Origin: Sulfitobacter sp. EhC04 | Lineage (GTDB): Bacteria > Pseudomonadota > Alphaproteobacteria > Rhodobacterales > Rhodobacteraceae | Assembly: GCF_001650875.1 (NCBI RefSeq) | Contig: NZ_LXYI01000015.1 | Location: forward strand, 1 to 64,000 | Direction: 5' to 3' | Length of the DNA: 64,000 nt | Shown: positions 346 through 25,970 of the stretch, in pieces | Numbering within the stretch: position 1 is the stretch's first letter | Layout of the letters: each line of letters opens with the position of its first letter | The notes under the pieces: generated by a model | What the model was told of the DNA's origin: nothing | Databases searched by the model: none | The model's input: only the letters and a program-made list of their open reading frames with translations | Translations under genes and position numbers: made by a program

Positions 346-1266
346 TCAGCCCGCATTCGCCGCCCGCATCTGGCGCAGCATCGCCGTGGAGTAGATCACC
401 AGCGCGAGCCAGATCATCGGAAAGGCAATCGCGCGGGCGCGGCCAAAGGGTTCTTCGAACACCAGCACGGCACAGAGGAAGATCATCGTCGGCGCGATGT
501 ATTGCAGGATGCCGATGGTAGACAGCCGCAACAGCTTGGCCCCGTTGGCATAAATCATCAGCGGCACCGCCGTGATCACGCCACAGCCGACCAGCAGCCA
601 GAAATCGCGCCCGAAGTCGAAGCTGAAATGCGACGTGCCGGTGGCTGTCAGATATGCCAGATAGCCCAGCGCGGGCAGGATCAGGATCAGCACCTCCAGC
701 AGGAACCCCTGGTTGGGTCCGATCGGCAGGCTTTTCTTGCACAAGGCATAAAAGCCCCAGGACACCGTCAGCCCCAGCGCGGCCCAGGGCATCCGGCCCG
801 CGTCGACCGCCAGCACCAGCACCGCGCAGGCGGCAAGTGCAATGGCCACCATCTGCGCGCGGTTCAGCCGCTCTCCCAAAAGGACCGCCGCCAGGAAAAT
901 GCTGAACAGCGGGTTGATGTAGTACCCCAGCGCCGCATCCAGCGCGTGGCCCGAGTTGATCGCCCAGACATAGATCCCCCAGTTGATCGAGATCAGCGCC
1001 GCCGTCACGCAGCCCATGCCCAGCATCCGGGGCGACCTCAGCGCCTCGCGCAGGGCGTCGGTGCGGCGCAGCACAATCAGCACGGCGGCGGCAATCGGCA
1101 GCGACCACAACACGCGATGCGCCACGATCTCTGCCGCCGGGATATGCGACAGCAGTTTCATGTAAAGCGGCAGGAACCCCCACAACCCATAAGCGGTGAT
1201 GGCAAAGCCAAGGCCCAGGGGCGTGTCTTCGTTTGTGACGGGGGTCAGGCTGTCGGGGTTGCGCAT
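346..1266 (-). CDS. rarD: EamA-family transporter RarD
   Basis: This is a 306-residue integral membrane protein of the drug/metabolite transporter superfamily. The RarD-type opening (GLGFAITAYGLWGFLPLYMKLL) is followed by AAEIVAHRVLWSLP and about ten hydrophobic segments, and the NWGIYVWAINSGH and ALGYYINPL motifs are typical of RarD. The substrate is unknown for the family. An upstream in-frame ATG at 1299 exists, but the ATG at 1266 has an AAAGGA ribosome site about 9 bases before it and matches the usual family start, so I chose it. The gene stands alone downstream of the seven-gene demethylation operon and on the same strand, 68 bases away, so read-through from that operon is possible. 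Confidence 0.9.
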   Translation of the reverse strand: MRNPDSLTPVTNEDTPLGLGFAITAYGLWGFLPLYMKLLSHIPAAEIVAHRVLWSLPIAAAVLIVLRRTDALREALRSPRMLGMGCVTAALISINWGIYVWAINSGHALDAALGYYINPLFSIFLAAVLLGERLNRAQMVAIALAACAVLVLAVDAGRMPWAALGLTVSWGFYALCKKSLPIGPNQGFLLEVLILILPALGYLAYLTATGTSHFSFDFGRDFWLLVGCGVITAVPLMIYANGAKLLRLSTIGILQYIAPTMIFLCAVLVFEEPFGRARAIAFPMIWLALVIYSTAMLRQMRAANAG

Positions 1267-1334
1267 CTGTAACGGTCCTTTGCGCCTAGGGGTAGGCAAC
1301 CCGCCGGGCGGAGGGAAGGATAACTTTGTACCCG

Positions 1335-3779
1335 TTACATTTTCGCCCGCGCGCCTGTCGGATCATACATCGGCTTCAGCGAGGCCTCTGCCCTGACCCG
1401 CACGCCTGCCACGTCGATCTCATAGGTCGAGGCCAGCAGATCAGCCGCCGTTTCCCCGACGCAAGGGACATAGCCCATGCCCATCGCGCCGCCCAGCGCA
1501 TGGCCATAAGCCCCGGAACTCAGGAAACCGACGATCTGGCCGTCCCGCAGCACCGGCTCATTGTGATAGAGCAGCGGTTCAGGATCGGTCAGGCGGAATT
1601 GCAGCATCCGCCGGTCCAGCCCCGCCTCACGCTTGCGCAGCACGGCGTCGCGCCCGATAAAGTCCGACTTGTCAGTCTTCACGGCAAAGCCAAGCCCGGC
1701 TTCCAGCACATGATCCTCTGACGTGATGTCATGGCCAAAGTGGCGGAACCCCTTTTCGATGCGGCAACTGTCCATCATGTGCATGCCACACAGGCGCAGG
1801 CCCAGGTCCTGCCCGGCCTCTGCCAGCACCTCGAACACATGGGCGGACTGATCGGCGCTGACATAGATTTCCCAGCCCAATTCGCCCACATAGGTAACCC
1901 GGTGCACGCGGGCCAGCCCCATGCCGATCTCGATCTCCTGCGCCGTGCCAAAGGGGTTCACCGCATTGGAAAAATCATTCGGTGACACCTGCTGCAACAG
2001 ATCACGCGCGCGCGGCCCCATCACGGCTAGCACCCCTTCGCCCGCCGTCACATCGGTGATCACGACGTTGAAATCACCCTGATGGCGGCGCATCCATGTC
2101 TGATCCGCCAGCCGGGTCGCGGCGGGGGTGACCACCAGATAGGCCAGTTCGGACAGGCGGGTGACGGTCACATCCGCCTCGATCCCCGCATGATGGTTCA
2201 GGAACTGGGTATAAACGATCTTGCCCAGCGGCACGTCATACTGCCCGCCGCCGATGTGGTTGAGGAATGCGCAGGCATCGCGCCCCTCCACCCGGATCTT
2301 GCCAAAGGAGGACATGTCGTACATGCCGACATGCTCGCGCACCGCCATGTGTTCTGCGGCCACGTTGTCAAAGAAGTTCTGCCGCTTCCAACTGTAGTGA
2401 TAGGCGCGGTCCTGCCCCGGTTCGGCGAACCAGTTGGCGCGCTCCCAGCCTGCCAATTCGCCCATGACGGCACCACGTTCCAGCAGATGGGCATGGAACG
2501 GGCTGCGCCGCACGCCGCGCGCGGTGGCCTTTTGCCGGTAGGGGTAGTGATCGGCATAAAGCAGGCCCAGCGTTTCGATGGACCGCCGGGCCAGATAGCG
2601 GCGGTTGCCCTGAAACGGCTGCATCCGGCTGATGTCCACATCACCCAGGTCAAAAGGCTTTTCGCCCGCGTCCATCCATTGCGCCAGCGCCATGCCTGCG
2701 CCCCCCGCCGACTGGATGCCGATTGAGTTGAAACCGGCCGCGACCCAGACATTGTCCATCTCCGGCGCAAGGCCAAGGTGATAGGCGTCATCGGGGGTAA
2801 AGCTCTCGGGGCCATTGAAAAACGTATGTATCCCCGCCTCGGCCAGCATCGGCATGCGGTTCACCGCCGCCTCTAGGATCGGCTCGAAATGGTCGAAATC
2901 CTCAGGCAATTGGTCAAACTCGAAATCCGCAGGAATGCCGTCCAGCGCCCAGGGTTTGGCCTGCGGCTCGAACGCGCCCAGCAGGATCTTGCCCGCGTCT
3001 TCCTTGAAATAGGCGCATTCGTCCGGCACCCGCAGGACCGGCAGTTGGGTGAGGCCCGCAATCGCCTCTGTCACGATGTAGAAATGTTCGCAGGCTTGCA
3101 GCGGGACGTTCACGCCCAGCATCTGCCCCACCTCGCGGCCCCACATGCCGGCACAGTTCACCACCATGTCGCAGGCGATATGCCCGCTGTCGCCGCCCTG
3201 TTCCCAATCGACCCCGGTGATGCGGCGGCCTTGCCGGGTCACGCCGGTGGCGCGGGTCCGCTCGAATATCTGCCCACCGCGCTGCCGCGCGCCCTTGGCC
3301 AATGCCAGCGCGATGTTGGCCGGGTCGCCCTGCCCGTCCTTGCCAAGGTAGACACCGCCCCTGACCTCCCCGATGTTGAGGTGGGGATATTTGTCCTTCA
3401 CCTCTGCCGCGCTGATCTCCTCCGCCTCCACGCCAAAGGCGCGGGCCATGGCAGCCTGGCGGTTGATCTCTTCAAGCCGTTCACCGGTCAGGGCAACGGT
3501 GATCGAACCGCAACGCTTGAACCCTGTCGCAACGCCCGTTTCGTCCTGCAAGTTGCCGTATAACTCTTGCGAGTATTTCGCGAGCTTCGTCATGTTGGCA
3601 GAGGCGCGCAATTGCGCGATCAGCCCCGCAGCGTGCCAGGTGGTCCCGGAGGTGAGTTGTTTGCGTTCCAGCAGTACCACGTCCTGCCACCCCAGCTTGG
3701 TGAGGTGGTAAGCGACGGAACAGCCGATGATGCCGCCCCCGATGATGACAACACGGGCCTGGGTGGGGATGACAGCCAT
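1335..3779 (-). CDS. FAD-dependent oxidoreductase/GcvT-family dehydrogenase (DMGDH/sarcosine dehydrogenase-like)
   Basis: This 814-residue enzyme fuses an N-terminal DAO-type FAD domain to a C-terminal aminomethyltransferase (GcvT) domain, the layout of dimethylglycine and sarcosine dehydrogenases. The dinucleotide motif IIGGGIIG is at residues 12-19. His49 in GTTWHAAGL is the residue that carries covalent FAD in dimethylglycine dehydrogenase. The second half (from about residue 430) carries GcvT features such as GELGWEIYV and a late EKGFRHFGHD stretch. The family oxidatively removes an N-methyl group and passes it to tetrahydrofolate. It is the last gene of the operon, 11 bases after the homocysteine S-methyltransferase gene. 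The substrate cannot be read from sequence: dimethylglycine, sarcosine or another N-methylated compound are all possible. It is paralogous to the product of 5301-7748. Confidence 0.88.
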   Translation of the reverse strand: MAVIPTQARVVIIGGGIIGCSVAYHLTKLGWQDVVLLERKQLTSGTTWHAAGLIAQLRASANMTKLAKYSQELYGNLQDETGVATGFKRCGSITVALTGERLEEINRQAAMARAFGVEAEEISAAEVKDKYPHLNIGEVRGGVYLGKDGQGDPANIALALAKGARQRGGQIFERTRATGVTRQGRRITGVDWEQGGDSGHIACDMVVNCAGMWGREVGQMLGVNVPLQACEHFYIVTEAIAGLTQLPVLRVPDECAYFKEDAGKILLGAFEPQAKPWALDGIPADFEFDQLPEDFDHFEPILEAAVNRMPMLAEAGIHTFFNGPESFTPDDAYHLGLAPEMDNVWVAAGFNSIGIQSAGGAGMALAQWMDAGEKPFDLGDVDISRMQPFQGNRRYLARRSIETLGLLYADHYPYRQKATARGVRRSPFHAHLLERGAVMGELAGWERANWFAEPGQDRAYHYSWKRQNFFDNVAAEHMAVREHVGMYDMSSFGKIRVEGRDACAFLNHIGGGQYDVPLGKIVYTQFLNHHAGIEADVTVTRLSELAYLVVTPAATRLADQTWMRRHQGDFNVVITDVTAGEGVLAVMGPRARDLLQQVSPNDFSNAVNPFGTAQEIEIGMGLARVHRVTYVGELGWEIYVSADQSAHVFEVLAEAGQDLGLRLCGMHMMDSCRIEKGFRHFGHDITSEDHVLEAGLGFAVKTDKSDFIGRDAVLRKREAGLDRRMLQFRLTDPEPLLYHNEPVLRDGQIVGFLSSGAYGHALGGAMGMGYVPCVGETAADLLASTYEIDVAGVRVRAEASLKPMYDPTGARAKM

Positions 3780-3790
3780 ATCAGGTGACC

Positions 3791-4672
3791 TCAGACAATG
3801 GAGTGACCCGCCGCACGCAGGCGGCGGGCGATTTCGGCAATATGCGCGGGGCTGACTTCGCAGCAGCCGCCGACGATGCTGGCCCCGGCATCGACCCAGC
3901 GCAGGACATGATCGGCGTAGCGTTCCGGCGTCAGATCGCGCCGCATGCTCAGGCTGTCCACGGTTGGCTTGTCCTCCAGAAAGCCCTCGGTAATCTGCTC
4001 GAACGCATTGGCGTAGGCGCCGAAGGGCAGACCGGATTGCGCCAGTATCGGCATCGCACTGTCAATCGCCTCGGGGACCGAACAATTGACAAGGACCGCC
4101 TGCGCCCGCTCCCGTGCCAGCGACAAAACCTCTGACAACGCCTCGCCCGAGCGCAGCCTCGTGCCGTCCTGATCGTCGACGGTCAGGGCCAGCCAAACGG
4201 GCTTGCCCGCTGTGGCGGCCCCCTTCAGGATGCTTGCGGCATGGGTCAGCGAGGCGACAGTTTCACAGATCAGCAGATCGCAATCGCCGGCAAGCAGCCC
4301 CGCAATCTCGGCATAAAGAACCGCACCGGCATCTGCGTCCGGATGCAGATCGGGCCGGTAAGAGGCCATCAACGGCCCGATGCTGCCCGCGATACGGGTC
4401 GCGCCACTGGCCCGCGCCTCCGCCAGCGCCAGCCTGTGCAACTCCTCGAACCGGTCTTCCAGCGGGGTGCCTGCCAACCTGTCGCGGTGGATGGCATAGG
4501 TGTTGGCCGTGGCCAGCGTCGCCCCGGCCTGCGTAAAATCGCGGTGCACACCGGCCACCATGCCGGGGTTGTCGATCATCACCTGCGTGGACCACAGCGG
4601 TGTCGGGTTGTCGCCGGAACGGTGGATCAATTCCTGCCCCATGCCGCCATCAAGCAGCGTTATATCACTCAT
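3791..4672 (-). CDS. Homocysteine S-methyltransferase family protein
   Basis: The 293-residue product belongs to the zinc-dependent homocysteine S-methyltransferase family (BHMT/MHT type), a TIM-barrel enzyme that moves a methyl group from a sulfonium or betaine donor to homocysteine to make methionine. It opens with LLDGGMGQEL. The three zinc-binding cysteines are present: one in VLVNCSVPEA and the adjacent pair in GGCCEVSPAHI near the C-terminus. The ATG at 4672 overlaps the stop of the preceding LysE gene in an ATGA junction, which argues for this start over longer in-frame options. Placed between two N-demethylating dehydrogenases, a betaine or similar methyl donor is plausible, but S-methylmethionine cannot be excluded. 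Confidence 0.88.
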   Translation of the reverse strand: MSDITLLDGGMGQELIHRSGDNPTPLWSTQVMIDNPGMVAGVHRDFTQAGATLATANTYAIHRDRLAGTPLEDRFEELHRLALAEARASGATRIAGSIGPLMASYRPDLHPDADAGAVLYAEIAGLLAGDCDLLICETVASLTHAASILKGAATAGKPVWLALTVDDQDGTRLRSGEALSEVLSLARERAQAVLVNCSVPEAIDSAMPILAQSGLPFGAYANAFEQITEGFLEDKPTVDSLSMRRDLTPERYADHVLRWVDAGASIVGGCCEVSPAHIAEIARRLRAAGHSIV

Positions 4673-5304
4673 TGCCGTGCCTCGGCGCTCAGGTCGCGGC
4701 TGGCCAGCAGGGCTGCCGCGACGATCATCAGCGCGCCGGATATCCGGTTCACCCAGACCCCGCTCAGCGCGCGCAGACGCCCAAGTGTCCGCGTTGCGGT
4801 CCACCCCCAAAGCAGCAGCACCGCACCATCGACAAGCAGATAGGTGACCCCAAGGATCAGCAGTTGCGGCAGGACGGCCTGAGCCGGGTCGATGAACTGC
4901 GGGAAAAGCGCGCCAAAGAACACAACCGCATATGGGTTGGCGGAGGAGGTCAGGAACCCCTGTCGGAACAGGACGCTCGTGCGCGCCTCGCGGGCAGCAC
5001 CCGGTTCAACCGCGCCGCCCCTTGTCATCATCAGGCGCACTCCGATCCACCCAAGATAGGCCACGCCAACCCATTTGATGATCCAGATCGCATCGGCAGA
5101 GGCCGCGATGATTGCCGTCAGGCCAAAGGCCGCCGCCGTCATTTGCAGCGCATTGGCCGACAGATCACCCGTTATCGTTGCCGCACTACGCCGCAGCCCG
5201 TGGCGCAGCGAATTGGAGATGATCAAAAGCTGGCTCGTGTCCGGCGGCGTCAGAAAGAAAGCGGCCAGCACCCCCAGATAGATCAGATATGTCTCGATGC
5301 TCAT
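4669..5304 (-). CDS. LysE-family exporter
   Basis: This is a 211-residue membrane protein of the LysE/RhtB amino-acid exporter family. It begins with the hydrophobic stretch TYLIYLGVLAAFFLTPPDTSQLL, has the ISNSLRHGLRRS region that follows the first helix in the family, and carries about six hydrophobic segments. It overlaps the upstream dehydrogenase gene and the downstream methyltransferase gene by 4 bases each (ATGA junctions), so it is translationally coupled inside the operon. It is one of two LysE paralogues there; I infer export of an amino acid that accumulates during demethylation, such as methionine, glycine or an N-methyl amino acid. Confidence 0.85.
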   Translation of the reverse strand: MSIETYLIYLGVLAAFFLTPPDTSQLLIISNSLRHGLRRSAATITGDLSANALQMTAAAFGLTAIIAASADAIWIIKWVGVAYLGWIGVRLMMTRGGAVEPGAAREARTSVLFRQGFLTSSANPYAVVFFGALFPQFIDPAQAVLPQLLILGVTYLLVDGAVLLLWGWTATRTLGRLRALSGVWVNRISGALMIVAAALLASRDLSAEARQ

Positions 5305-7748
5305 GCGCGCAGCCTTTCGTTTTCAGGGTCCCATAGCGGCTGATCCGGTTGCACCACCGCCGGGCAGAGTCTGCCAAAGATGTTGATCTGCACCTGCGTG
5401 CCGGGTGTGGCCAGATCCGCGCGGATGGTGCCCAGCGCGATGGATTTGCCGATCCGGTATCCCCAGTCGCCACTGGTGGTTTCGCCCACCACCTCGCCGT
5501 TGTGCAGAACGGTGGACATATAGGGCGCATCCTGATCGCCCGCCTCGACAATCATGGTGACAAAGCGTTTCTTCACGCCCGCCTGTTTCTCGGACAACAG
5601 CGCGGCCTTGCCGGGGAAGTCCTGCGGTTTGTCAAACCGGATGAAACGGTCCAGCCCCGCCTCCAGCAGGGAATAATCGGTGGACAGGTCCCCCTTCCAG
5701 GTCCGATACCCTTTCTCCATGCGCATCGCGTTCAGCGCATACATGCCAAAGGGTTTCGCCCCGGCACCAAGCACCGCGTCATAAAGCACCGGGATGTCGG
5801 CCATCGCCGCATGGATTTCCCAGCCCAGTTCGCCCGCAAAACTGACCCGCGCCAGGGTGCAGTCAACGCCCGCAACCTGAGCAGGTTGATGGCTCAGCCA
5901 GCCCAGCGACAGGTCGGCTTGCGTTTCGATCGCGGTGAACAGCGCGCGCGACTTGGGGCCGGTCACGATCAGCGTGGAATAGTCACTGGTCTCGTCGGTC
6001 AGGCTCAGCCCTTCGGGCAGGTTCCGCTGCAACAGTTCAAAGTCATGCCACTGCGCAACCGCAGCCGTGATCAGGGTAAAGGCATCCTCCGCCTGCCGCA
6101 TGATCGACATTTCGGTGAGGATGCGGCCCCGGTTGTCAGGGAAATAGCCCAACGTCATGCGCCCGACCTTGGGCAGGGCACCCGCGATGCGCCCCCGCAG
6201 CCATTCCGCCGCGCCCTCGCCGCCAAGGGCGAAGCGCGAGAACCCCGGCAGGTCCAGCACCCCCACCGCGTCGCGGACGGCTTCGACTTCATCCTGAATG
6301 CGGATCGCCCAGGGGCCGTTGCGGTCCCAGGTCTGGGTCGCTGCCTCGGACGTGTCGTCGCCTGGCTGCGCAAACCAGTTGGCGCGCTCCCAGCCGTTAT
6401 AGGCACCCATCTGGCCACCCAACGCAATCACCTTTTCATGGACTGGCGACAGCTTCCTGTCACGCCCCGCAGGCCATGCATGGCGCGGGAAATGCATCGC
6501 GTATTCGTGGCCATAGGTTTCCATCGCCTTGGCAAGGCAATGGTCGTGATCGGTATAATCGGTGTAGCGGCGCGGATCGACGGACCACATGTCCATCTCT
6601 GTCTGTCCGTGCATGATCCATTCCGACAGCACCTTGCCCGCGCCGCCGCCCTGCGCGATCCCGAAGGTGAAAGAATGCCCTTCAAATGCATTGCGAACCC
6701 CCGGCATCGGGCCAACCATGGGCAGCCCGTCAGGGGCATAGGGGATCGGGCCGTTGATGTTGCGCCCCACCCCGGCACTGCCCAGGATCGGCACCCGCGC
6801 CATCGCGTCCTCGATGTAATATTCCAGCCGCTCCAGATCGTCGGGGTAAAGCTGAAAACTGAAATCCTCGGGCATCGGATCATCCGGCGTGACCCAATGC
6901 GCCTTGCAGTTCCGCTCATAGGGGCCAAGGTTCAGACCGTTCTTGTCCTGCCGCAGGTAATAGGATGTATCCACATCGCGCAGCAGCGGCACCTTATGGC
7001 CCTTCTCTCTGGTCCAAGCCTCAAGCTCTGCAATCGGCTCGGTCAGGAAATACTGATGCGACATGGTGACCATCGGCACGGTGCGCCCGCCGAAGGGTTT
7101 GAACATCTCGCCCACACGCTGCGCATAATACCCCGCGCAATTGGCGACAAATTCGCAGCGGATCTCGCCCTTCGGGGTCTTCACGATCCACTCGTCGCCG
7201 TCGCGGTCGATGCCGATGGCCGGGCAGAACCTTTCAATACGCCCCCCCGCATCCCGCGCCCCCTTGGCCAGCGCCTGTGTCAGCTGTGCCGGATCAATGT
7301 CACCATCCAGCGGGTCCCAAAGCCCCCCCATAAGATCATGGGTTTCCATGAAGGGATGCCTTTCCTTCAATTCGTCCGGTGTGCAGACGGTCATTTCCAG
7401 ACCCTGGTACTGCCCCATGGAGGCCACGCGTTCGAATTCCTGCATCCGTTCCTTTGAATGGGCCAGCCGCACGGAGCCGGTGACGTGGTAATTCATCGGA
7501 TAGCCCACGTCCTCGCCCAGAGTGCGGTACATGGCGGCGGCATAGCGCTGCATGTTCATCACCGCCCATGAGCCCGCAAAGTTCGGCACATTGCCGGCCG
7601 CGTGCCAAGTGGACCCCGCGGTCAGTTCGTTCTTTTCCAGCAGGACGCAATCGGACCAGCCCGCCCTGGCCAGATGATAAAGGGTCGAGGCACCCACGAC
7701 GCCGCCGCCGATGATGACAACACGGGCGGTTGTGGGGAACTCACTCAT
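5301..7748 (-). CDS. FAD-dependent oxidoreductase/GcvT-family dehydrogenase (second paralogue)
   Basis: This 815-residue protein has the same FAD plus GcvT architecture as the product of 1335-3779. The motif IIGGGVVG is at residues 12-19, and His49 in AGSTWHAAG is at the covalent-flavin position of dimethylglycine dehydrogenase. The C-terminal half contains FAGELGWEIHA and MEKGYRTWKGDLS, typical of the folate-binding GcvT domain. Substrate-side regions differ clearly from the other copy, for example NVPNFAGSWAVMNM after the WHAAG motif instead of LIAQLRASANMTK. The two enzymes may therefore act on successive intermediates, such as dimethylglycine then sarcosine. A start at 7748 is favoured because it places the FAD motif as in the paralogue and gives an 8-base overlap with the GFA gene. 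A longer frame to 7877 is unlikely. Confidence 0.88.
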   Translation of the reverse strand: MSEFPTTARVVIIGGGVVGASTLYHLARAGWSDCVLLEKNELTAGSTWHAAGNVPNFAGSWAVMNMQRYAAAMYRTLGEDVGYPMNYHVTGSVRLAHSKERMQEFERVASMGQYQGLEMTVCTPDELKERHPFMETHDLMGGLWDPLDGDIDPAQLTQALAKGARDAGGRIERFCPAIGIDRDGDEWIVKTPKGEIRCEFVANCAGYYAQRVGEMFKPFGGRTVPMVTMSHQYFLTEPIAELEAWTREKGHKVPLLRDVDTSYYLRQDKNGLNLGPYERNCKAHWVTPDDPMPEDFSFQLYPDDLERLEYYIEDAMARVPILGSAGVGRNINGPIPYAPDGLPMVGPMPGVRNAFEGHSFTFGIAQGGGAGKVLSEWIMHGQTEMDMWSVDPRRYTDYTDHDHCLAKAMETYGHEYAMHFPRHAWPAGRDRKLSPVHEKVIALGGQMGAYNGWERANWFAQPGDDTSEAATQTWDRNGPWAIRIQDEVEAVRDAVGVLDLPGFSRFALGGEGAAEWLRGRIAGALPKVGRMTLGYFPDNRGRILTEMSIMRQAEDAFTLITAAVAQWHDFELLQRNLPEGLSLTDETSDYSTLIVTGPKSRALFTAIETQADLSLGWLSHQPAQVAGVDCTLARVSFAGELGWEIHAAMADIPVLYDAVLGAGAKPFGMYALNAMRMEKGYRTWKGDLSTDYSLLEAGLDRFIRFDKPQDFPGKAALLSEKQAGVKKRFVTMIVEAGDQDAPYMSTVLHNGEVVGETTSGDWGYRIGKSIALGTIRADLATPGTQVQINIFGRLCPAVVQPDQPLWDPENERLRA

Positions 7749-8124
7749 CTGTCCGTGCCTTCTCTGGGTCGATGCCCGGAATGTCATAATAATCGCCCTT
7801 GTCGGCGGTGAAGATGTGCCGTTCCAGATGCAGACCGGTTTCCCCGTCCAGAGCGCCCAGCGCCACGCCGATTTCATCCTCGTCGTTGCTCTTCCAGAAC
7901 AGGAAGGACCCGCAGGTCGGGCAAAAGCCGCGTTTGGCGCTGTCAGATGCCGCGTACCAGCGCACCGGGCCGGTCATCCTGAACCCCGCCATCCAGACGT
8001 TCACGGACGCCCAGTAATGGCCCGATTGCTTGCGGCACTGGCTGCAATGGCAGGCCGCCGGGTCGCGTGCCGTCCGGTCTGCGGTGAATGTGATCTTGCC
8101 GCACAGGCAGCTGCCTTTGAGCAT
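7741..8124 (-). CDS. GFA-family (formaldehyde-activating-like) zinc protein
   Basis: The product is 127 residues and has the zinc cysteine pattern of the GFA fold: CLCGK near the N-terminus, ACHCSQCRKQSG in the middle and FCPTCGSFLFW later. The founding member helps formaldehyde react with glutathione, but many relatives have other or unknown roles. Its place between a LysE gene and a demethylating dehydrogenase supports a role in handling formaldehyde released when folate is limiting; that is an inference. The stop overlaps the start of the downstream dehydrogenase by 8 bases, and the gene begins only 3 bases after the upstream LysE gene. Confidence 0.85.
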   Translation of the reverse strand: MLKGSCLCGKITFTADRTARDPAACHCSQCRKQSGHYWASVNVWMAGFRMTGPVRWYAASDSAKRGFCPTCGSFLFWKSNDEDEIGVALGALDGETGLHLERHIFTADKGDYYDIPGIDPEKARTDE

Positions 8125-8127
8125 GGT

Positions 8128-8748
8128 TCAACTCCTTGTCGGGGTGGTGGCAGTGCCCAGCAGGACACCGTAGATGATGAAACAAAGCGCCATGACCCGG
8201 CGCACCCAGATGTTAAAGACCGCCCCCAGCGCCGCCCGCCCGATGCCCGCGCCAAGCGCGGTAAAGGTGACATAGCTGAGCGCCGTCAGCGTCAGCGCGG
8301 TGGGGAAAATGACCACCATCTGTTCCCAGATCGGGACGTTCGGCTGCACAAACTGCGAAAAGGCGGCAAGATAACCTGCGACGGACTTGGGGTTGATCGT
8401 GGCGATGGCAAGCGCCCGGAGGTAGACCGACTTTGCAGGCCGGTCCGAAACCGTGACCGGGGTTCCGGCCATCACCCATCCGCGTATCCCGAGATAGATC
8501 AGAAACCCCGCGCCAATCCATTTGGCCACCGTAAACGCCGTCTGCGACGCGGCAAGCAGTGCCGTGACCCCAAGCACGGAAAGCAGCAGGAACAATGTGG
8601 CTTGCGTGAGGATTGCCAGCACCCCGATCAGGCCGCGCCGGAAACCAATGGTCATGCCGTTGGTGATGCAATTGACCGCATTCGGCCCCGGCGTGGTGAC
8701 AAATACCAGCCAGAAAAGGGCAAATACGGTCCAGGCTTCAAAGCTCAT
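8128..8748 (-). CDS. LysE-family translocator
   Basis: This 206-residue protein is a LysE/RhtB exporter. After the first helix comes the family signature TPGPNAVNCITNGMTIGFRRGL, and further helices follow (AILTQATLFLLLSVLGVTALL, WIGAGFLIYLGIRGW). It lies 9 bases downstream of the XRE/cupin regulator gene and 3 bases upstream of the GFA gene, so it is the first structural gene of the operon. It is a distant paralogue of the exporter at 4669-5304. An LysE exporter directly next to a local regulator often means that the exported amino acid, or something related, is the signal; here that is only a suggestion. Confidence 0.88.
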   Translation of the reverse strand: MSFEAWTVFALFWLVFVTTPGPNAVNCITNGMTIGFRRGLIGVLAILTQATLFLLLSVLGVTALLAASQTAFTVAKWIGAGFLIYLGIRGWVMAGTPVTVSDRPAKSVYLRALAIATINPKSVAGYLAAFSQFVQPNVPIWEQMVVIFPTALTLTALSYVTFTALGAGIGRAALGAVFNIWVRRVMALCFIIYGVLLGTATTPTRS

Positions 8749-8757
8749 GTCATTTAC

Positions 8758-9330
8758 CTAATACACCGGCGGCGCGATCACCCAGATCGCCACCGCCGGG
8801 GTGTCGAAAGGGTTGGACCAGCGGAACGCCTCGCCGCGGATGCGAAAACTGTCACCGGGGTTCAGCAGATGGGCCGTGCCCTCGATCTCGACCTCCAGCT
8901 TGCCAGAGACAAGATAGCCGACCTCCTGCGTGGGGCGGCTGACGGGTGCCGTGATCCGGCTGTGGGGTTGAAAGGTGGAATGCACCACCTCGAAATCATC
9001 CGTGAGGTCGGGGGACAGCAATTCTTCGACCAGCCCGGCGACATCAGAACCGATGGGCCGCCGTGCGCCCTGCCGCACCACATAACCCGCCTCATGCGCA
9101 GGGGCCGCGGCGTGGCGAAACAACATGGAGACAGAAACCCCGAGACAGGCCGCGATATGGCGCAAATCAGTGATCGACGGGTCGGAGATACCCCGCTCAA
9201 CCTGGCTCAGCCAGCCGACGGAGCGGCCAAGGGTGTTGGCCATCTCCGTCAGGGTCAGATCCCGGCTCTTGCGCAGGGCGCGCAGGTCCGCTCCGAGGGA
9301 AAAAGGTGGGTCTGGCGGGCTGTGCTGCAT
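8758..9330 (-). CDS. XRE-family regulator with C-terminal cupin domain
   Basis: The 190-residue protein has an N-terminal helix-turn-helix (residues about 12-66: LRALRKSRDLTLTEMANTLG, then SVGWLSQVERGISDPSI) and a C-terminal cupin_2 sensor domain (about 115-185, with VGYLVSGKLEVEIEGTAHLL and LNPGDSFRI). This architecture is common in regulators of polyamine, betaine and amino-acid catabolism. It is the first gene of the seven-gene demethylation operon and probably its controller. Two identical-arm dyads (9342-9367 and 9381-9406) lie immediately upstream of its ATG, which points to autoregulation of the entire operon. Ligand and sign of regulation are unknown. Confidence 0.9.
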   Translation of the reverse strand: MQHSPPDPPFSLGADLRALRKSRDLTLTEMANTLGRSVGWLSQVERGISDPSITDLRHIAACLGVSVSMLFRHAAAPAHEAGYVVRQGARRPIGSDVAGLVEELLSPDLTDDFEVVHSTFQPHSRITAPVSRPTQEVGYLVSGKLEVEIEGTAHLLNPGDSFRIRGEAFRWSNPFDTPAVAIWVIAPPVY

Positions 9331-9341
9331 GATACCTGGGG

Positions 9342-9367
9342 TGAAATTTACGACTCCATTTTCACGC
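9342..9367 (-). promoter_or_regulatory. Operator candidate, promoter-proximal dyad
   Basis: On the minus strand this reads GCGTGAAA, ten bases, then AAATTTCA. The dyad core is TGAAA/TTTCA. It lies 12-37 bases upstream of the regulator start codon and shares both 8-base arms and the spacing exactly with the dyad at 9381-9406. Confidence 0.6.
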
Positions 9368-9380
9368 TAGACCCCTGATA

Positions 9381-9406
9381 TGAAATTTTCCAGCATTATT
9401 TCACGC
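9381..9406 (-). promoter_or_regulatory. Operator candidate, distal dyad
   Basis: This is the second copy of GCGTGAAA-N10-AAATTTCA, exactly 39 bases upstream of the first in the direction of transcription. It overlaps the last codons of the GAF gene. Identical arms with unrelated central bases are what a dimeric DNA-binding protein selects for. Confidence 0.6.
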
Positions 9407-9854
9407 ACCCGAAAACCGAATGCAATATGTCGCCAAGGGCGGTGGCATCCACCTGCGAAAAGGCATCCGACTGATTGCTGTCGATGTCGAACACCGCGAT
9501 CAGCCTGCCGGTGCCATCGCGAACCGGCAACACCAGTTCCGACCGTGTGGTCGAGGCACAGGCAATGTGACCCGGAAAGGCATCCACATCCGGCACCAGT
9601 TGCACCTTGCCCTCCCGCGCGGCGGCCCCGCAGACACCACGGGAAAACGGGATGCTCAGGCAGCCGTGGCCGCCCTGATAGGGACCGATCTTGAGCAACT
9701 CCGGCGCGACAACCCGGTAAAACCCGGTCCAGTCGAAACGGTCATCGGCATGATGCACCTCACAGGTGACCGTGGCCATCAGGGCAACGGCATCGGCCTC
9801 CCCTTCGGTCAGCGCCGCGATGGTCCGGGCCAGGGTGGCGTAGTCAACTTGCAT
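9396..9854 (-). CDS. msrC: GAF-domain protein, free methionine-(R)-sulfoxide reductase type
   Basis: This is a 152-residue single GAF domain protein. The three cysteines of free methionine-R-sulfoxide reductase are all present: Cys65 (GHGCLSIPF), Cys75 (SRGVCGAA) and Cys99 (GHIACAS), together with the DWTGFYR and ELVLPV motifs. The enzyme reduces free, not protein-bound, methionine sulfoxide. A clear AGGA ribosome site precedes the ATG at 9854. It is 18 bases downstream of the thiolase gene and just upstream of the demethylation operon on the same strand; the downstream operator candidate overlaps its last codons. A link to methionine made by the operon's methyltransferase is attractive but unproven. 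Confidence 0.85.
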   Translation of the reverse strand: MQVDYATLARTIAALTEGEADAVALMATVTCEVHHADDRFDWTGFYRVVAPELLKIGPYQGGHGCLSIPFSRGVCGAAAREGKVQLVPDVDAFPGHIACASTTRSELVLPVRDGTGRLIAVFDIDSNQSDAFSQVDATALGDILHSVFGCVK

Positions 9855-25821: not shown

Positions 25822-25848
25822 AAAAAAGGCCGGGCACGAAGCCCGGCC
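25822..25848 (-). terminator. Rho-independent terminator downstream of cenR
   Basis: On the minus strand GGCCGGGC-TTCGT-GCCCGGCC forms an 8-bp stem and is followed by TTTTTT. It ends the cenR transcript about 125 bases beyond the stop codon, which leaves an unusually long structured 3' UTR. Confidence 0.9.
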
Positions 25849-25970
25849 AAGTCCAACAGGGAGGTATGTGCCAATACCCGGGCACAAGCTTCGGGGTTCA
25901 AACCGAGCAGCGGGTCATGAAAACCCCGCCTCTCGTAGGGGTAACCGCAGAACCCTGATTTGGTTCCGGC
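25822..25970 (-). ncRNA. Candidate 3'-UTR-derived small RNA with anti-SD motif
   Basis: The 125-base stretch between the cenR stop and its terminator can fold into several hairpins on the minus strand, including GUGCC/GGCAC (25877-25894). Directly after that stem lies AUACCUCCCUG (25858-25868) in an apparently single-stranded linker before the terminator. Hairpin, CCUCCC and terminator in that order resembles CcsR-type small RNAs of Rhodobacter. There is no open frame of note. This is a structural inference only. Confidence 0.35.

Follow-up and report, generated by a model that had tools for sequence, protein, structure and literature searches.

A seven-gene operon was analysed in Sulfitobacter sp. 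EhC04, within a window of 64,000 nucleotides (the whole stretch of DNA under study, positions 1 to 64,000 of contig NZ_LXYI01000015.1). On balance, it is moderately likely that this is a locally regulated operon of lower glycine betaine catabolism, in which two FAD/GcvT dehydrogenases, here termed FADa and FADb, carry out the dimethylglycine and sarcosine steps. The core of this pathway is already in print; a pair of palindromes in front of the regulator gene, a sharply defined putative operator, is apparently new. Among the organisms that consume glycine betaine, an abundant osmolyte of algae, are the roseobacters. Work from 2025 supplied the first demethylation step in R. pomeroyi and predicted the later steps, the sections on these steps leaving their control untreated (PMC12478193). 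For the later steps, the operon offers a candidate gene set together with its regulator and operator.

The seven open reading frames are all on the minus strand, inside window positions 1335-9330, in the order XRE/cupin regulator, LysE-type exporter (LysE1), GFA-family protein, FADa, second LysE-type exporter (LysE2), homocysteine S-methyltransferase (HMT), and FADb. The junctions in this order are a 9-bp gap, a 3-bp gap, overlaps of 8, 4, and 4 bp, and an 11-bp gap, and Pfam supports the domain assignments of all seven products. Strand, order, and junctions are therefore as described in an earlier note made from the letters of this DNA, and its view of the locus as a conserved demethylation operon, with two FAD/GcvT enzymes of the dimethylglycine dehydrogenase (DMGDH) and sarcosine dehydrogenase (SARDH) type and with its own regulator, is supported. 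The draft genome, of 4.85 Mb in 89 contigs, is 99.9% complete.

The cluster is real and is conserved, with variations, in many marine roseobacters. In a phyletic survey of 120 genomes of the roseobacter family, there are matches to FADa in 71, to FADb in 81 (75 after filtering), to the XRE/cupin gene in 54 (52 after filtering), and to HMT in 56; for FADa and FADb, nearly always only eight of the first-look candidates per genome were scored. Filtering removed FADb matches of paralogue level (44-51%; G052, G069, G079, G086, G107, and G157), two XRE matches (43-44%; G130 and G145), and one of 69 matches (52%; G157) to an MttB-family protein (PF06253, 364.5 bits), first found beside dehydrogenases without HMT, for which 68 genomes were kept. 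FADa and FADb occur together in 69 genomes, FADa alone in 2, FADb alone in 6, and neither in 43.

The neighbourhoods of FADa were mapped by tblastn in all 71 FADa genomes, with a radius of 9 kb and thresholds on identity and coverage, some clusters being cut by contig ends. Within this radius are FADb (63 genomes), the XRE gene (47), HMT (37), GFA (25), a GAF-domain gene (24), LysE1 (20), the MttB-family gene (17), LysE3, assigned to Pfam LysE (14), RarD (13), a GbdR-like regulator gene (9), and LysE2 (3). None of the mapped XRE, LysE, GFA, HMT, or FADb genes is on the strand opposite to FADa. The XRE gene, HMT, and FADb are jointly near FADa in 34 of the 71; the full seven-gene content is rare, being present in the window and in G144 only, the latter with one extra LysE.

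Two architectures can be distinguished. The 47 clusters with the XRE gene frequently contain HMT (34), any LysE (28), GFA (24), and the GAF gene (24), with the MttB-family gene in 3. In the 24 clusters without it, the MttB-family gene is present in 14, HMT in 3, GFA in 1, and LysE and GAF genes in none. Genome G046 merges the two, with the XRE gene, FADa, the MttB-family gene, HMT, and FADb. The exporters are variable accessories. The regulator follows FADa rather than HMT, since 51 of the 52 XRE genomes have FADa and 37 have HMT. The order FADa, HMT, FADb on a single strand is seen in the window and alike in Roseobacter records L012-L015 and L018; in other loci (L011, L026, L056, and others) a GbdR-like AraC regulator, with 146 bits to a GbdR model that has a cut-off of 480, separates FADb from HMT or FADa. 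Among named records, Sulfitobacter sp. DFL-14 has the HMT nearest to the present one (90% identity); in the operon of that strain (L009) there is no match to LysE1, and the other members are 83-93% identical. In G017 (L042), the same chromosomal spot carries the GAF gene, LysE1, GFA, HMT, and RarD; FADa and FADb are both missing from the 3.9 kb covered.

The regulator has an N-terminal helix-turn-helix (HTH) domain and a C-terminal cupin domain, and its gene is preceded by a putative paired operator. The pattern TGAAA-N13-TTTCA matches twice in the window, where dinucleotide shuffles give an expectation of 0.04. The fetched loci, 2.56 Mb in total, have 112 exact matches to the pattern, and for 109 of these a mapped XRE gene is no more than 400 bp away. 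With a weight matrix of 106 sites at a threshold of at least 11 bits, the 2.82 Mb scanned contain 112 sites within 300 bp of an XRE start and 9 in other places, compared with 2 matches in a single-base shuffle control of equal sequence amount; the matrix was trained on the same sites that it scored, and the exact-pattern counts are the fairer test. These counts are from fetched loci, not whole genomes, and the 112 sites are not independent because some loci overlap. Among 60 distinct XRE upstream regions (duplicates and regions containing over 50 N were left out), 47 have two boxes, 12 have one, and one has three; none is without a box. In 32 of the 48 multi-box regions, a distance of 39 bp separates the final two boxes, and the consensus of these 32 has a CTTGGA-like sequence within box 1 and CAnCGT 17 bp later, abutting box 2. 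These may be the -35 and -10 elements in the relatives, which would be the layout of an autorepressed promoter, and the XRE/cupin protein is probably a local autorepressor.

The paired 23-bp palindromes appear to be new and seemingly undescribed, though of a known kind. XRE-cupin proteins of P. aeruginosa are local repressors, some of them with demonstrated palindromic sites, and the Pseudomonas regulators ErfA, PsdR, and PauR share with the present protein the domain layout, palindromic sites, and control of neighbouring metabolic genes, the last being predicted for the present protein (PMC7901475). In contrast to these, there is here a fixed TGAAA-N13-TTTCA pair, usually 39 bp apart, over the putative promoter of a betaine-type operon, a distinction drawn between descriptions and not between motifs. 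A full-text literature search for such a regulator together with betaine brought up a single paper, on cobalamin biosynthesis. The GAF gene runs at its end into box 1 and hence probably belongs to a transcription unit of its own.

Away from XRE genes, one clear operator site was found in G113 (L102:7741-7769, 27.2 bits), 348 bp upstream of an MttB-family gene, a sign that the regulator may reach this gene there. As a general arrangement, common control of the MttB-family gene by this operator was rejected, G113 alone having a clear site among the 65 places where the gene lies in fetched loci (for one of them, under 400 bp of upstream sequence was available); the copy in the EhC04 genome has no site of at least 11 bits in front of it. 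Two further operator-like sites were noted, one 488 bp before FADb in G075 (L126:6545, 22.5 bits) and one 1453 bp before FADa in G128, a genome without the XRE gene (L147:6303, 21.8 bits).

Both dehydrogenases have the Pfam architecture DAO, FAO_M, GCV_T, and GCV_T_C. The earlier note had proposed comparing them with characterised DMGDH, and the mammalian enzyme is indeed the best solved-structure match of both (FADa 568 bits, FADb 470 bits); to Arthrobacter dimethylglycine (DMG) oxidase, FADb scores 414 bits and FADa 264. The FAD-His motif GS/TTWHAAG is kept, with H49 in both proteins, and the equivalents of H225 and Y259 of the Arthrobacter enzyme are conserved in both. At the position of D552, FADa has E546, as rat DMGDH has E, and FADb has D536, as DMG oxidase has D. 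The active-site roles of FAD-His, H225, Y259, and D552 are assumed here from the literature on DMG oxidase. Architecture and active-site residues are thus those of mammalian DMGDH and Arthrobacter DMG oxidase, the difference being that two diverged paralogues are here within one operon. Based on the labels of the published R. litoralis and R. pomeroyi genes, FADa is probably a DMGDH and FADb a SARDH.

Features of the operon and its flanks (window coordinates).
Feature	Position	Strand	Basis
XRE/cupin regulator	8758..9330	-	Pfam HTH_31 + Cupin_2; fold match 1y9q; in 47/71 FADa clusters
LysE1, predicted LysE-type exporter	8128..8748	-	Pfam LysE 75.5 bits; NCBIfam best PRK10520 97.3 bits, below cut-off of 209
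GFA-family protein	7741..8124	-	Pfam GFA 76.2 bits, cut-off 24.3
FADa, DMGDH-like FAD/GcvT dehydrogenase	5301..7748	-	568 bits to rat DMGDH; conserved active-site residues
LysE2, second predicted LysE-type exporter, rare in relatives	4669..5304	-	Pfam LysE 85 bits; near FADa in 3/71
HMT, MmuM-like homocysteine S-methyltransferase	3791..4672	-	Pfam S-methyl_trans 192.4 bits; invariant C197, C270, C271; MmuM fold match
FADb, second FAD/GcvT dehydrogenase, probable sarcosine dehydrogenase	1335..3779	-	470 bits to rat DMGDH; 414 bits to Arthrobacter DMG oxidase; D536
GAF-domain protein, flank	9396..9854	-	Pfam GAF; no NCBIfam match
RarD/EamA transporter, flank	346..1299	-	NCBIfam TIGR00688 212.2 bits, above cut-off
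Putative operator box 1, TGAAA-N13-TTTCA	9381..9403	-	Overlaps 3' end of GAF gene
Putative operator box 2, TGAAA-N13-TTTCA	9342..9364	-	39 bp from box 1

The MttB-family protein is a closer phyletic partner of FADa than HMT is. It occurs together with FADa in 63 of the 120 genomes, with FADa alone in 8, the MttB-family protein alone in 5, and neither in 44; for HMT and FADa, the corresponding numbers are 49 with both, 22 with FADa alone, 7 with HMT alone, and 42 with neither. The EhC04 genome has three MttB-family genes, and MtgB- and MtgC-like genes are present. The copy that corresponds to the partner of FADa is on contig C5 (C5:9775-11262; L092, L164), with an aminotransferase gene upstream. 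It was dropped as the canonical MtgB, scoring 192 bits to 2qne against 407 for the copy on contig C29, which also scores 725 bits to 4yyc (a putative trimethylamine methyltransferase), 406 to 9yce (a glycine betaine methyltransferase), and 118 to trimethylamine methyltransferase. A canonical MtgB-like protein of the C29 type is present in 110 of the 120 genomes. Close together on C29 are also genes for a corrinoid protein, which is below the cut-offs of two MtgC models (186 bits against 370 and 174 against 310), for a DUF1638 protein, and for MtgE (571 bits to NF005718). On contig C3, MetH is split into two genes, and beside it (C3:21962-22630; L088, L094) a gene for a Rieske protein adjoins that for a GbcB-like reductase. 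Of the Rieske proteins of the EhC04 genome, this one comes nearest to GbcA (496 bits, cut-off 670); it has 726 bits to 3n0q and 634 to 3vca, the latter being the stachydrine demethylase Stc2. GbcA, the glycine betaine monooxygenase, was found in none of the 120 genomes at E <= 1e-170, a threshold at which 14 control genomes also gave none, so that its absence is not established.

From the anatomy, conservation, residues, co-occurrence, and operator seen here, the substrates, the export cargo, a formaldehyde role, an effector, and the direction of control may be predicted as follows. The first methyl group would be removed outside the operon by cobalamin-dependent MttB-family methyltransferases of the MtgBCD type. 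Dimethylglycine would then be converted by FADa to sarcosine, and this by FADb to glycine, both enzymes passing their one-carbon units to tetrahydrofolate. Together with the LysE and GFA proteins, HMT would be an accessory for methionine and one-carbon metabolism, forming methionine in a side branch from a sulfonium compound or a betaine. Overflow export of surplus amino acids by the LysE proteins is plausible, as is the handling of stray formaldehyde by the GFA protein. The XRE/cupin protein would repress its own promoter through the two palindromes, which would cover the -35 element and the start region, with release on sensing a metabolite of the pathway.

The earlier note had known of no named system with this composition. 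The SARDH-HMT-DMGDH core has, however, been printed for R. litoralis, where the homocysteine S-methyltransferase RLO149_c039100 is flanked by DMGDH4 (c039110) and SARDH (c039090), consecutive and in the order of the window, and a matching HMT neighbourhood is reported at RD1_0018 of R. denitrificans (PMC3141670). The passages on RLO149_c039090-c039110 make no mention of a regulator, exporters, a GFA protein, or an operator (PMC3141670). In R. pomeroyi, SPO3400 is named as DMGDH and SPO3396 as SARDH, and SPO3398 is listed as a homocysteine S-methyltransferase. The first demethylation in that species is cobalamin-dependent, with MtgC (SPO2160) and MtgD (SPO1863) being essential for growth on betaine and for methionine synthesis; methionine fails to restore betaine growth of the mtgC and mtgD mutants, and N-osmolytes raise the MttB-family proteins SPO2108 and SPO2134 together with the predicted DMG and sarcosine demethylation proteins (PMC12478193). 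The MtgBCD/MtgE system is thus of the same organism group and pathway, but is not encoded in the operon, and MtgE differs from HMT, the MtgE of EhC04 reaching 571 bits to NF005718 and HMT 72.5.

A number of observations weigh against the reading of the locus as a locally regulated operon of lower betaine catabolism. The published growth data include no growth of R. litoralis or R. denitrificans on dimethylglycine, both species growing on betaine (PMC3141670), and a 2020 study named bhmt1, dgcA, and soxBDAG as the genes of betaine degradation in Rhodobacteraceae (PMC7574528). The FADa, HMT, and FADb genes are equated with those of R. litoralis and R. pomeroyi by gene order and published labels, not by sequence comparison. 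The EhC04 genome, with 12 GCV_T matches (one below the cut-off), has three further four-domain FAD/GcvT proteins (two on contig C45, one on C16) and two SoxA/SoxB sarcosine oxidase pairs, on contigs C25 and C9 (L097, L098), with alpha subunits of 1280 and 1290 bits (cut-off 1164) and nearby beta subunits of 639 and 655 bits (cut-off 529); the sarcosine step thus has candidates other than FADb. The C5 MttB-family copy scores almost equally to glycine betaine methyltransferase (192 bits) and to trimethylamine methyltransferase (181 bits). An MtgB-like protein of the canonical type is in 110 of the 120 genomes and FADa in only 71, so that either the later steps take another form in the remaining genomes or FADa and FADb act on another substrate. 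Purified Bmt of P. inhibens (PGA1_c13370, the MtgE of PMC12478193) methylates homocysteine from betaine and from dimethylsulfoniopropionate (DMSP) in vitro (PMC12366255). The proposed promoter was not picked up by a generic consensus promoter scan.

The part played by HMT bears on two other explanations. By profile, HMT is below the cut-off of every model: 127.2 bits for MmuM (cut-off 215), 106 for the fusion of HMT with methylenetetrahydrofolate reductase, and 72.5 for the bacterial betaine:homocysteine methyltransferase (BHMT; cut-off 338). E. coli MmuM is its closest solved relative by sequence (83 bits), and by E-value MmuM (5dmm) heads the fold matches of the AlphaFold model (pLDDT 95.6), at 26% identity and TMq up to 0.80; the match to T. 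maritima MetH has TMq 0.78-0.82, and that to BHMT 16-20% identity and TMq 0.67-0.77. HMT thus resembles E. coli MmuM most closely in sequence, but is below the MmuM cut-off, has a different gene context, and has a TMq of up to 0.82 to MetH. Residues C197, C270, and C271, which are presumably zinc-binding cysteines with the role known from BHMT, are invariant across 45 of the 88 distinct HMT sequences; HMT and XRE genes of unusual length were left out, and 44 of the 59 distinct XRE sequences were used.

These cysteines, the gene order, and the closeness of HMT to FADa (9 kb or less in 37 of the 71 genomes) would all agree with a self-contained betaine operon, in which HMT acts as a betaine:homocysteine methyltransferase ahead of FADa and FADb. 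This is the 2011 proposal for R. litoralis, where RLO149_c039100 was put forward as a new class of bacterial betaine methyltransferases, for glycine betaine (PMC3141670), and because the related Phaeobacter Bmt uses betaine and DMSP directly, HMT may still act first (PMC12366255). The proposal is put in question by the present data: HMT is nearer to MmuM than to BHMT in model score and in fold, and 22 of the 71 FADa genomes are without it. Nor does it stand in where the MttB-family protein has been lost, being present in 3 of 8 FADa genomes without that protein and in 46 of 63 with it (P = 0.10, Fisher values here ignoring shared ancestry), and this candidate role was rejected as unsupported. 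In R. pomeroyi, growth on betaine depends on MtgC and MtgD even with methionine supplied (PMC12478193), so that such an HMT, if SPO3398 is orthologous, cannot alone support it. A self-contained operon is decidedly unlikely, and the first place that the earlier note gave HMT in a sequential stripping of methyl groups is doubtful. Since HMT is absent from 22 and the MttB-family protein is present in 63 of the 71 FADa genomes, the data fit a role for HMT beside the main pathway.

Alternatively, two modules may have merged in the operon, one for methionine repair and overflow (the GAF, LysE, and GFA proteins, with HMT acting on S-methylmethionine or damaged S-adenosylmethionine) and one of betaine dehydrogenases, under a regulator that senses methionine. 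This is partly compatible with the lower betaine pathway and is possible, if rather unlikely. MmuM is the first fold match of HMT, and of 17 fetched loci where HMT is away from the dehydrogenases, 7 have a GAF, GFA, or LysE gene nearby according to a home-made gene-calling script, and 10 have none; plasmid contexts of HMT give no hint of its substrate and are uninformative here. The model of the regulator (pLDDT 83.8, pTM 0.59) has as its first match 1y9q, an XRE-cupin protein of Vibrio cholerae whose cupin pocket is reported to hold D-methionine, but the match is weak in sequence (29 bits, in the HTH part) and moderate in fold (TMq 0.60), and the regulator tracks FADa and not HMT, as given above.

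If the MttB-family protein, FADa, and FADb instead form a three-step route for a trimethylated compound other than glycine betaine, the product would be transaminated. In G131 and, by the same script, in G040, FADa and FADb have an aminotransferase gene between them, and another adjoins the MttB-family gene of EhC04, but by the tblastn map the G131 type is in 1 of 71 clusters only. The close phyletic partner of FADa not being the canonical MtgB, the far wider distribution of the latter, and the other sarcosine- and DMGDH-like enzymes of the EhC04 genome are consistent with such a route. Both FADa and FADb are, nevertheless, closest to DMGDH, the GbdR-like regulators within some clusters point to betaine or DMG, and both R. 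pomeroyi MttB-family proteins rise on N-osmolytes with the predicted DMG and sarcosine steps (PMC12478193). Another trimethylated substrate is unlikely. Homarine was also considered as a substrate and set aside, no homarine operon having come up in the literature searches. A bolder proposal, highly doubtful at present, is that the XRE/cupin switch with its fixed double operator links betaine-type demethylation to methionine status, sensing methionine or a methylated compound of the pathway; HMT would then be a cobalamin-independent route from osmolyte to methionine, and FADa and FADb with their unlinked MttB-family partner would strip a quaternary amine that is perhaps not glycine betaine.

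In the flank of the operon, the GAF-domain protein is assumed to resemble free methionine-(R)-sulfoxide reductase, a name not given to it by any of the libraries. Elsewhere in the window, at 25822-25897 on the minus strand, there is a match to the Rfam family SorX, a singlet oxygen resistance small RNA, with 77.2 bits against a gathering score of 46.6.

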